Shown here piece by piece: positions 7,992-12,336 of a DNA stretch of 64,000 nt. The position numbers were made by a program, and so were the translations under genes. Origin of the DNA: Thermococcus sp. 18S1 (GTDB lineage Archaea > Methanobacteriota_B > Thermococci > Thermococcales > Thermococcaceae). The stretch covers positions 1,922,001-1,986,000 of the forward strand of contig NZ_SNUU01000001.1 of assembly GCF_012027645.1 (NCBI RefSeq). Direction: 5' to 3'. A model generated the notes under the pieces. It was given only the letters and a program-made list of their open reading frames with translations. It had not been told where the DNA came from and did not search any database. The first letter of the stretch is position 1; every line of letters starts with the position of its first letter.

Positions 7992-9470
7992 TCAGCCGAC
8001 TGTTATTTCCTTTTCTCCCTCGTTCTCGACCTCGTGTATCTTTCCGCCCTTCATGACCTCCACGATGGCCAAGCTGAGCAGGGCGAGGAATAGATAGACG
8101 AGCGCCGAAGTGCCGAAGAGCACCTCGTAGGCCTTCTCCGTCGGTATCTTGATGGGCACTGGAATCTGTGGGATGTGCACGAGTATGTAGTAGGTGCTCA
8201 TGACTGTTCCAGCTATGGCCGGTCCCCACGTCGAGCCGAAGTTTCTGAACAGGCTGTTCGCTCCTGTGGCAACTCCCATGACCCTCGGCGGAACCGAGAA
8301 CACCAGCACGTTGATGAATGAGACGTTCATGAGGGTTATCCCGGCCCCGACGACCGCTATGAGGGCCACGAACTGGGTGAGGGAGAGCTGGGTGGCGTAC
8401 TGGGAGAGCAGGGCCAGGCCGGCACTCGCCGTTAGGGCACCGGTTATGGCTAAAGGCTTCGCACCTATCCTGGGCATCAGCTTGCCGGCCAGGGGAGCCA
8501 CGACCAGCATGACGCCGGCCATCGGAGTCATGAGCAGACCGCTTTCAAGTATCGTCTTACCGAAGCCGTAGGGCGGCTTCATCTGGAAGATGTAGGTGTT
8601 CGCCTGGCTCATCATGGATATTCCGAAGGCCGCGAACATTATGCCGAGGTTCACTATGGCGGGGTTTCTGGAGGATATTATGTCGAGCGGGATCAGCGGG
8701 TTGTCGGCTCTCTTCTCCCAGAGGTAGAGCGCGATGATTCCAATGATGGACACCCCAAAGAGTACGAGCGTCTGCTCCGCCCTCCAGCCGACGGTGGGTG
8801 CCCTGGTCACCGCTACCAGGGCCGGCACGACGGCCCAGACCAGGAAGAGCGCCCCGGGCCAGTCGAGCTTTCCGGGGTTCACGTAGCGGCTCTCGCGGAG
8901 AACCCTCCATGCGAGAATGAACATCAGAACCGCAAAAGGTGCCGCCGAGTGGTACGTCCATCTCCATCCATAATTCTGGGTTACGTAAGCTCCGAGGGGA
9001 AGCGCGATGACCATACCGACGCCAAACATGGCGCTTATCATGCCCTGAACCTGCGGCACCATCTCGGGCGGGAACTCCTCACGGACGAGGCTGAACGCTA
9101 ACGGGAATATGGCCATCCCAAGGCCCTGGATTCCGCGGGAAACGAGAAGCCAGTGAAAACTCGGTGCAAAGCCGTTGAGTATGACACCGAGCGTGTAGAA
9201 GCCAAGGGCGACCAGAAACATCCTCTTCTTGCCGTACATGTCCCCGAGCTTGCCGAGTATGGCGGCACTCACCGTCCCGACGAGGAGGTAGATTGTGAGA
9301 ACCCAGCTGACGTCGTTAGGGTTTATCCCGAACTCCTTCTGTATCGTCGGAAGTGCCGGAGTGAGCATCGCCTCGGTGTACATGACGAGCAGTGGGAGAA
9401 TGACCACCACCAGCATTGCCCTCTTGGCGTAGGCCATGTCGTAGGTTCCGTTATTCCTAGCGACGTTCAT
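7992..9470 (-). CDS. MFS drug exporter, DHA2-like (14 TM)
   Basis: The 492-aa membrane protein is a major facilitator of the DHA2 type, which exports drugs or other toxic compounds using the proton or sodium gradient. The family motif A loop GKLGDMYGKKRMF between TM2 and TM3 is present, and the length accommodates 14 hydrophobic segments. TM1 is MLVVVILPLLVMYTEAMLTPALP and the C-terminus is charged and cytosolic. Start at 9470 follows GGTGATA. The promoter region contains two adjacent CGATRTATCG half-palindromes (9481-9502), so it is probably repressed by a dimeric regulator encoded elsewhere. It is divergent from the helicase gene. Confidence 0.88.
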   Translation of the reverse strand: MNVARNNGTYDMAYAKRAMLVVVILPLLVMYTEAMLTPALPTIQKEFGINPNDVSWVLTIYLLVGTVSAAILGKLGDMYGKKRMFLVALGFYTLGVILNGFAPSFHWLLVSRGIQGLGMAIFPLAFSLVREEFPPEMVPQVQGMISAMFGVGMVIALPLGAYVTQNYGWRWTYHSAAPFAVLMFILAWRVLRESRYVNPGKLDWPGALFLVWAVVPALVAVTRAPTVGWRAEQTLVLFGVSIIGIIALYLWEKRADNPLIPLDIISSRNPAIVNLGIMFAAFGISMMSQANTYIFQMKPPYGFGKTILESGLLMTPMAGVMLVVAPLAGKLMPRIGAKPLAITGALTASAGLALLSQYATQLSLTQFVALIAVVGAGITLMNVSFINVLVFSVPPRVMGVATGANSLFRNFGSTWGPAIAGTVMSTYYILVHIPQIPVPIKIPTEKAYEVLFGTSALVYLFLALLSLAIVEVMKGGKIHEVENEGEKEITVG

Positions 9471-9480
9471 ATTCTATCAC

Positions 9481-9504
9481 CGATGTATCGAACGATATAT
9501 CGTT
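9481..9504. promoter_or_regulatory. Tandem palindromic operator of the MFS exporter
   Basis: Two 10-bp elements, CGATGTATCG (9481-9490) and CGATATATCG (9493-9502), lie 12 bp apart centre to centre. The second extends to the perfect 14-bp palindrome AACGATATATCGTT (9491-9504). On the minus strand they fall between the TATA-like TTTATAAACG region and the exporter start at 9470, where a bound repressor would block RNA polymerase. Drug exporters in archaea and bacteria are commonly controlled by TetR-, MarR- or PadR-type repressors through such sites; which one acts here cannot be seen. Confidence 0.65.
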
Positions 9505-9516
9505 TATAAACCTAAC

Positions 9517-9555: not shown

Positions 9556-12336
9556 ATGCATCCCCTCCTGAGAAAGGCCATCAAGGAACGCTTCGGAAGG
9601 CTCAACGAGGTTCAGATGGGGGCATTCCGTGAGGTTAGTTCGGGGAAGAGCGTTCTGATCATAGCCCCCACCGGCTCGGGGAAAACCGAGGCGGCCGTTC
9701 TCCCCGTCTTCAACGAAATCCTTGAGGAAAGGCTTAAACCTATTTCCGCACTCTACATCGCACCTCTCAAGGCCCTCAACAGGGACCTGCTTGAGAGACT
9801 CGAATGGTGGGGTCAGAAGCTCGGAATAACCGTTGAGGTCAGGCACGGCGACACCTCGGCATACAGGAAGGCGAAGCAGACGAAGAATCCTCCTCAAATG
9901 CTCATCATAACCCCCGAAACCCTCGGCGTGATTCTGACGGTTAAGTCTCTTAGAAAGCACCTTGAGAACGTGAGGTTCGTCATCGTCGATGAGATAGCCG
10001 AGCTAGTGGACAACAAGCGCGGTGCGCAGCTCCTCCTCGGCCTTGAGCGCCTGGCCGAGATAGTGGACTTCAGGAGAATAGGTATGACGGCGACGGTGGG
10101 CAACGAGGAGGAGGTGAGGGAGTGGCTGAAGGCGGACGTCATAGTGAAGCCTAGCTGGAGGAAAAACTACCGCTTCCACGTCCTCTATCCGAAGCCCGGC
10201 GAGAGGGACATGGAACTCGCCAGGAAGCTGAGCCTCTCACCCGAAATAGCGGCTAGGCTTAGGCTCCTCTGGGAGATAGTTGAGGAGCACGGAAAGGCCC
10301 TCATATTCACCAACACGCGCCAGTTCGCGGAGATTCTGGCGCACCGCCTCAAGGCCTGGGGGAAGCCTGTCGAGGTTCACCACGGCTCGCTTTCGAGGGA
10401 GGCGCGCGTTAAGGCGGAGAGGGCTCTGAAGGAGGGCAAAATCAAGGCACTAATCTGTACCTCCTCGATGGAGCTGGGCATAGACATAGGCGACGTTGAT
10501 GTTGTGATCCAGTACATGAGCCCGAGGCAGGTGAACCGCTTAGTTCAGCGCGTTGGAAGGGCAAAGCACAGGATAGGCGAGGTGAGCGAGGGCTACGTCA
10601 TAACCTCCAACGTCGAGGACTACCTTCAGAGCCTCGTCATAGCGAAGCACGCCCTCGAAGGCCGCTTCGAGGCGGTCGAGCCGATGGGAGGGCTGGACGT
10701 TTTGGCTCATTTCGTCGTCGGCCTGCTCATTGAGTACAAAAGACTGCCCCGTGAGAGGCCCTACGAGATAGCAAAAAGGGCCTACGTTTACAGGGATTTG
10801 AGCTGGAGCGATTACCTCGACGTTCTCCGCGTTTTGGAGGATGCCAGGCTGATAGGCTACGACGAGGAGAGCGGCCTGCTCTACCTGAGGCGCGGGGCAT
10901 TCCAGTACTACTACGAGAACCTCTCAACGATTCCGGACGAGGTTTCGTGGAGGGTATTCGACGCGGGGAGCGGGCACGTTATAGGCAGGCTCGACGAGAG
11001 CTTCGTCATGGATCTGGAGGAAGGCATGGACTTCGTAATGAACGGACGGAGCTGGATAGTGCTCAAGATAGACGACGAGGCGAGGCTTTTGAAGGTACGC
11101 GAGAGCAAAAGCCTTGAGAGTGCAATACCGAGCTGGGAGGGTGAGATGATCCCCGTTCCGTTCAGCGTTGCCCTCGACGTCGGCAGGCTGAAGAGGGAGC
11201 TGGCTTTTAACTTCGAGAAGGCGAAGGAGCTTTTGGAGGGGGTTGAGTTCAGCGAGGAGGAACTGAGGAGGGCCTTCGAGGAAATCAAAGACGAACCCTT
11301 CTCGACCGACCGCGATATCGTCGTCGAGAGCATACCCAAGGCGCTCGTCATACACGCCGATTTCGGGAACAGGGCCAACGAGGCCCTCGGACGGCTGGTT
11401 CACTCGCTTCTGATTCTGCGCTATGGAAGGGTTTTCTCCGTCCGCTCACAGGCCCACGCGATAGTATTCAAAACGCCGTTCCAGCTGAACCCGGAGGAGG
11501 TAAAGGGCTACCTCTACCAGGAACCGGAGAGCCTGGAGTTCATTGTTTCCCGCGCCATGAGGGATTCCCACGCCTACCGCTGGAGAATGCTGAACGTGGC
11601 GAAGCGGTTCGGGGCTTTGAGGAGGGACGCCAGGATAAGGAGAATCGAGAGGCTCTTCGAGGGCACCGTGGTGGAGAGGGAAACCCTGAGCGAGCTGTAC
11701 CACGACAAGGTGGACGTTAGGAAGGGGGAGCTGGTCCTTGAGATGCTCAAGAGGGGCACGATGAGGGTGAAGACCGAGCTTAGGAGGGAGCCCTCAACTC
11801 TGGCCAGGCTCAACATGACCGTTGGCGGTGAGTTCCTGCTCTCCGGCGTCCTGGAGAGGGACGAGATACTGGAGCTGTTCAGGAAGAGACTGCTCGACCA
11901 CGAGGTCGTCTTGGTCTGCACCAACTGCGGCTGGCACTCGAAGACGAAGGTTGTGAGGCTCCAGAATATAAAGCTGAGGCAGTGCCCGCGCTGCGGCTCG
12001 AAGATGCTCGCCGTTGCCCACCCGATTGACGCGGAAGAGTTTCTCCCTGTCCTGGAGAAGGTTCGCCACGGGAAGCCGCTGGAGCGGAAGGAGGAGAGAA
12101 CCTACAGGAAGCTGCTGAAAGCCGCTGACCTCGTGGATTCCTACGGGTTCGAGGCGGTCCTGGCTTTGGCCAGCTACGGCACCGGTCCCGACACCGCGGC
12201 GAGGATTCTGGCCCAGTACAAAGGAGACGCCCTGCTCGTCGCCCTCATGGAGAGGGAGCGGCAGTTCATAAGGACGAGGCGCTTCTGGGTGGATAAGAAA
12301 GAGAATGAAACCGAGAACAGCCAGAAGGAAGTTTGA
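9556..12336 (+). CDS. Lhr-type superfamily 2 helicase
   Basis: A 926-aa ATP-dependent helicase of the large helicase-related (Lhr) family; archaeal members unwind RNA/DNA hybrids and are linked to DNA repair or RNA processing. Visible parts: Walker A APTGSGKT (37-44), Walker B VDEIAEL near 143, the SAT-like motif MTATVG, motif VI QRVGRAKHR, a winged-helix/Lhr-core region, and near the C-terminus a zinc site CTNC (about 788) and CPRC (about 809). Which archaeal subgroup (aLhr1 or aLhr2) it belongs to I cannot decide from sequence alone. The start at 9556 is the first ATG, placed 25 bp after the TATA box, so the message is likely leaderless. Confidence 0.9.
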   Translation: MHPLLRKAIKERFGRLNEVQMGAFREVSSGKSVLIIAPTGSGKTEAAVLPVFNEILEERLKPISALYIAPLKALNRDLLERLEWWGQKLGITVEVRHGDTSAYRKAKQTKNPPQMLIITPETLGVILTVKSLRKHLENVRFVIVDEIAELVDNKRGAQLLLGLERLAEIVDFRRIGMTATVGNEEEVREWLKADVIVKPSWRKNYRFHVLYPKPGERDMELARKLSLSPEIAARLRLLWEIVEEHGKALIFTNTRQFAEILAHRLKAWGKPVEVHHGSLSREARVKAERALKEGKIKALICTSSMELGIDIGDVDVVIQYMSPRQVNRLVQRVGRAKHRIGEVSEGYVITSNVEDYLQSLVIAKHALEGRFEAVEPMGGLDVLAHFVVGLLIEYKRLPRERPYEIAKRAYVYRDLSWSDYLDVLRVLEDARLIGYDEESGLLYLRRGAFQYYYENLSTIPDEVSWRVFDAGSGHVIGRLDESFVMDLEEGMDFVMNGRSWIVLKIDDEARLLKVRESKSLESAIPSWEGEMIPVPFSVALDVGRLKRELAFNFEKAKELLEGVEFSEEELRRAFEEIKDEPFSTDRDIVVESIPKALVIHADFGNRANEALGRLVHSLLILRYGRVFSVRSQAHAIVFKTPFQLNPEEVKGYLYQEPESLEFIVSRAMRDSHAYRWRMLNVAKRFGALRRDARIRRIERLFEGTVVERETLSELYHDKVDVRKGELVLEMLKRGTMRVKTELRREPSTLARLNMTVGGEFLLSGVLERDEILELFRKRLLDHEVVLVCTNCGWHSKTKVVRLQNIKLRQCPRCGSKMLAVAHPIDAEEFLPVLEKVRHGKPLERKEERTYRKLLKAADLVDSYGFEAVLALASYGTGPDTAARILAQYKGDALLVALMERERQFIRTRRFWVDKKENETENSQKEV

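Follow-up and report, generated by a model that had tools for sequence, protein, structure and literature searches.

A tandem operator predicted to link an MFS exporter gene to an unlinked padR-drrA-drrB operon in Thermococcus

The LmrR-LmrCD system of Lactococcus lactis is induced by drugs. Its regulator belongs to PadR subfamily 2 and, according to the available parts of two papers, has operators at its own promoter and at the promoter of an ABC exporter (PMC3506622, PMC5050560). As far as those parts go, the system described here is similar: it has a PadR-family regulator, operators at the regulator's own promoter and at an exporter promoter, and an ABC exporter as target. It differs in its archaeal host, in an operator without ATGT and ACAT half-sites in that order, and in its gene arrangement: padR shares an operon with a DrrAB-like pump, and a further pump, of the MFS type, is encoded at an unlinked locus. 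By analogy, the mechanistic model that comes closest is LmrR of Lactococcus. The subfamily 2 proteins bcPadR1 and cdPadR1 are likewise PadR winged-helix regulators; they are bacterial and have other targets, cdPadR1 binds its own promoter, and a tandem operator with a 12-bp period is not mentioned in the available part of the source (PMC5050560). In Archaea, a distant winged-helix relative of the PadR protein considered here (P0002) is hsRosR of Halobacterium salinarum, for which structures have been solved (sequence match, E 3.5e-6). hsRosR has a role in oxidative stress. The motif of TrmBL1, a regulator of Thermococcales, is TATCAC-N5-GTGATA. The TrmBL1 operator, which in the available part of PMC6316755 is placed downstream of the TATA box and overlapping the start, has the same position as the operator described here, with a different motif and sugar-related targets. 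Both the archaeal PadR family and the Pyrococcus furiosus PadR protein PF1476 are described as being of unknown function in the available part of PMC4706686. Compared by description only, PF1476 and padR belong to the same family and archaeal group; PF1476 is a singleton under TrmBL1 control, whereas padR heads an operon (PMC4706686, available part). PadR-controlled efflux is an already known kind of regulation. The regulon and operator reported here are not described in the available parts of PMC4706686, PMC6316755, PMC4463584, PMC10746257, PMC5050560 and PMC3506622, and no published description was found in a search that left out RegPrecise and most subscription journals, where an earlier prediction may exist.

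The window analysed was a stretch of 64,000 nucleotides of the Thermococcus sp. 18S1 genome (G000, 1.99 Mb). The following features were read at the exporter promoter:

9481-9502, minus strand: 22-bp operator; plus-strand sequence CGATGTATCG-AA-CGATATATCG, or CGATATATCG-TT-CGATACATCG when read along the MFS gene
9491-9504, no strand: perfect 14-bp palindrome AACGATATATCGTT, which includes the TATA-proximal 10-mer
9503-9510, minus strand: TATA box of the MFS promoter, TTTATAAA, adjoining the operator (sequence reading)
9476-9481, minus strand: Shine-Dalgarno-like GGTGAT, sharing the last base of the operator (sequence reading)
7992-9470, minus strand: gene for a DHA2-like MFS exporter of 492 aa (PF07690, E 1.6e-52), the predicted target of the operator

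By direct reading, the plus strand carries CGATGTATCG at 9481-9490, AA at 9491-9492 and CGATATATCG at 9493-9502, with a period of 12 bp from start to start. An earlier note on this DNA had described two 10-bp palindromes 12 bp apart, one of them extending to a perfect 14-bp palindrome. The spacing and the 14-bp palindrome were confirmed; the first 10-mer taken by itself falls short of a perfect palindrome, as its reverse complement reads CGATACATCG. The same note had placed the element just upstream of the exporter start with no regulator gene beside it. Both points held: the operator-like element ends 10 bp upstream of the MFS start codon (9470-9468, minus strand), and no regulator gene is adjacent. 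Archaeal transcripts usually begin some 25 bp past the TATA box; with a start at that distance, the operator would span the whole interval between the two. A divergent gene for an Lhr-type helicase begins at 9556 on the plus strand, and no reason was seen to include it with the operator.

Fourteen hydrophobic segments, the number that characterizes the DHA2/EmrB transporters, were counted in the MFS protein by a crude and approximate Kyte-Doolittle procedure. TIGR00711 was the best of its 74 matches (E 1.1e-48); as the score of 166.2 bits is below the curated cut-off of 230.2, the protein is named DHA2-like only. Orthologs (at least 68% identity) were found in 58 of the 94 genomes of the family set, which comprises six genera and 74 near-complete genomes. 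Homologs with 42-45% identity in G068, G098 and G113 were excluded from this count.

CGATRTATCG has three strand-matches in the window against 0.09 expected from shuffles. In the whole genome it is not enriched, with 4 + 3 matches (forward + reverse) against 4 + 6 for the reversed control. The single 10-mer, being at chance-level frequency genome-wide, was ruled out as the functional unit. The other single 10-mers of this genome, at L007:3954 and L008:3563, have no tandem partner. The first of them (L007:3954-3963, G000:C1:1009953) is a lone CGATGTATCG between a TATA-like TTTTTAA and a small open reading frame (MKIVLEVTFRMGG...); with neither tandem partner nor profile match, it probably arose by chance.

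The tandem pattern was searched with up to 3 mismatches permitted. Across 61 genomes of the genus it matched 109 times forward and 106 times in reverse, compared with 12 and 28 times for the reversed control; in the Thermococcus sp. 18S1 genome alone this loose pattern was hardly above control (2 + 2 against 1 + 2). A sequence-only profile (R1) was built from an alignment (A1) of 79 of the 98 distinct site strings, the other 19 being omitted from both. R1 retrieved exactly two tandem sites from the 18S1 genome, each on both strands and with none further up to E 10, one at the MFS promoter and one at the padR promoter. Both were already among the strings of the profile, so the telling point is the absence of other sites. 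Matches in G028:C51 and G081:C144 fall within an open reading frame and were dismissed as noise. Same-class genomes outside the family gave marginal matches in 2 of 21 (E about 0.014). The earlier note would have abandoned its proposal if the motif were scattered at random: this is so for the single 10-mer and not for the tandem.

The second site (G000:C1:81614-81635) precedes the gene of a 153-aa protein, P0002, and its end is 9 bp from the start codon. This gene, padR (G000:C1:81146-81604), is on the same contig as the MFS gene and far from it. P0002 has a PadR winged-helix domain (PF03551, 61 bits against a cut-off of 27) and matches PadR structures in sequence, 4ejo among them. Used as a query against genome contigs, it retrieved one distant bacterial locus. 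padR is followed by an ABC ATPase gene (TIGR01188, DrrA; 404.8 bits against a cut-off of 312.45) and an ABC-2 permease gene (TIGR01247, DrrB; 393.9 bits against 223.05). The order padR-drrA-drrB, with the site before padR, links the regulator to an ABC exporter and to an operator at its own promoter. The PadR domain has nine matches in this genome, seven of them above cut-off, and by R1 only padR bears the operator. The six other above-cut-off PadR-domain genes of this 2-Mb genome have no match to it.

A genome-wide motif search had been recommended as the way to an autoregulated regulator gene, and such a search led, at the sequence level, to the padR promoter with its second tandem. As far as sequence goes, padR, a PadR-family gene with the same tandem before its start, answers to the autoregulated regulator that was predicted to lie elsewhere. 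That this regulator is a repressor, as had also been claimed, is inferred from the position of the operator only. Autoregulation of padR would hold by an argument from gene position only. The site is, probably, the operator of an autoregulated PadR repressor that is encoded elsewhere and controls its own operon and, in trans, MFS. PadR as the binder, repression as its action and a drug or metabolite as inducer are all putative.

A single padR ortholog was found in 57 of the 61 genus genomes. In the family it occurs in 88 of 94 genomes and in all 74 near-complete ones; the six genomes without it are at most 82% complete. All 88 padR promoters that were read (88 of 88) carry the operator; its core, TRTC-N4-GAYA, is unaltered in 86 and changed at one base in each of the other two (G071 and G093). 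It was present before MFS in 51 of 51 promoters read, and R1 matches just upstream of MFS in G085 and G104 bring this to 53 of 53 orthologous MFS promoters. The five of 58 MFS promoters that were not read belong to G065, G071, G074 and G080 (fragments or contig edges) and G087 (not fetched).

Genomes were scored as having two sites when they gave at least 3 strand-matches at E<=0.02, a number that implies at least two sites. Two or more sites were found in 43 of the 46 near-complete genomes with MFS and in 0 of the 28 without it; the genomes are related by descent, and these counts are not independent trials. In the three exceptions, either the sites have diverged (G015 and G022) or MFS begins at a contig edge (G080). 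Genomes of the genus without MFS (G034, G062, G063 and G084; G073, 86% complete) have the padR site only, as does G068, which has just a 44% MFS homolog. Operator copy number tracks the presence of MFS. Poor conservation in relatives with the same exporter had been named as evidence against the proposal, and the conservation found was very strong.

Another unlinked transcription factor could bind the site and control both padR and MFS, PadR having other targets. This is unlikely. In all 88 genomes read, from six genera, padR is the sole gene that constantly follows the site, even where MFS is missing, and a site kept in this way at the gene of the regulator itself usually signals autoregulation; the 18S1 genome, moreover, has two sites only. 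In favour of such a factor, padR genes of Thermococcales can have other regulators, as PF1476 does in TrmBL1 (PMC4706686, available part), and the half-sites are not those of canonical PadR operators. Among 139 aligned sites, ATGT-N8-ACAT occurred once and ATGT-N10-ACAT not at all (1/139 and 0/139); the form AYAT-N10-ATRT was found in 104 of the 139. Membership of the protein in the PadR family, which was found, and a PadR type of operator, which was not, are separate questions.

In the sense of the genes, the operator consensus is about RAYATATC-N4-GATATRTY. The strongest columns of the 139 aligned sites include the TC and GA that flank the variable 4-base centre. The inner halves of the 10-mers carry 8.0 and 8.3 bits of information at padR and 9.5 and 9.1 at MFS, and the outer halves 5.8 and 6.9 bits at padR and 7.1 and 6.8 at MFS. 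The better conservation of the inner halves points to a common dyad between the two 10-mers. The model of two perfect palindromes is weakened by this pattern. Two dimers side by side, as suggested from the spacing, are not established: a central dyad would fit a single dimer that makes extended contacts as well as two dimers that cooperate. Covariation between dyad partners was mostly uninformative. Within genomes, co-variation of the MFS and padR sites was found for a T at position 10 only (p 0.002, uncorrected and confounded by phylogeny).

Pairwise identity over the 22 bp was 74% at padR and 82% at MFS, values inflated because the sites were chosen by similarity, against 29% and 40% over 22 bp on the far side of the TATA box, upstream of it. 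An AT-rich palindrome that arose by chance, or a core-promoter feature that no specific regulator recognizes, is conceivable for a motif whose single 10-mer has a chance frequency, and can still hardly be the explanation: the site is conserved where its flanks diverge, its copy number follows MFS, both genomic copies of the tandem stand ahead of exporter operons, and a core-promoter element would be expected at many genes. Judged on its sequence, the tandem is a real, non-random, operator-like element found across the family.

All 139 promoters have a TATA-like heptamer (loose pattern) ahead of the site, at a distance of 0-4 bp. In the proposed mechanism, PadR would occupy the 22-bp site, which fills the gap from the TATA box to where transcription is expected to begin. 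Bound there, it would block recruitment of polymerase at two promoters, that of the padR-drrA-drrB operon and, in trans, that of MFS. By analogy with LmrR, a toxic ligand may bind PadR and free it from the DNA, and padR, drrAB and MFS would then be switched on together. Activation by PadR bound to the same site, or action in either direction depending on the ligand, is very unlikely: in all 139 promoters the site follows the TATA box and extends as far as the expected start, and archaeal factors bound downstream of the TATA box normally block polymerase.

The padR regulon is accompanied, at L250:3118-3552, L246:1653-2123 and L255:2438-2884, by a small gene of the Fer4 ferredoxin-like type that has a CGGGEEC motif. 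G033, G035 and G070 have an additional site some 500 bp ahead of that of padR. In G033 it precedes a Fer4 ferredoxin-like gene (full reading), and the stretches of G035 and G070 share the CGGGEEC motif. At an unlinked locus of G015, a gene of this type (identified by a protein scan) has a tandem site before it; the corresponding stretch of G005 contains both the site and the CGGGEEC motif. In G110 the operon itself includes the ferredoxin-like gene, placed after padR and before the ATPase gene. The gene thus has its own copy of the operator where it stands alone; the operator follows it, which supports a real regulon. Tentatively, and with considerable doubt, two unrelated exporters, a DrrAB-type ABC pump and a DHA2-like MFS pump, and, in some species, a small 4Fe-4S ferredoxin-like protein might be coupled throughout the family by a single 22-bp operator, its central dyad unlike known PadR operators, for redox-linked efflux of an ancient, perhaps self-made toxin, not of antibiotics. 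That all 74 near-complete genomes keep padR speaks for a substrate met every day more than for a drug met now and then.

An archaeal PadR regulator would gain from this prediction a concrete operator and a set of targets, with one switch for two unlinked pumps in hyperthermophiles that are genetically tractable. The MFS promoter could act as a reporter for finding the substrate. The MFS gene at G019:C1:1330859-1332321 looks broken, in two overlapping pieces, and that of G067:C6 near 26213 is only partly matched; in both cases the operator is still intact or nearly so.
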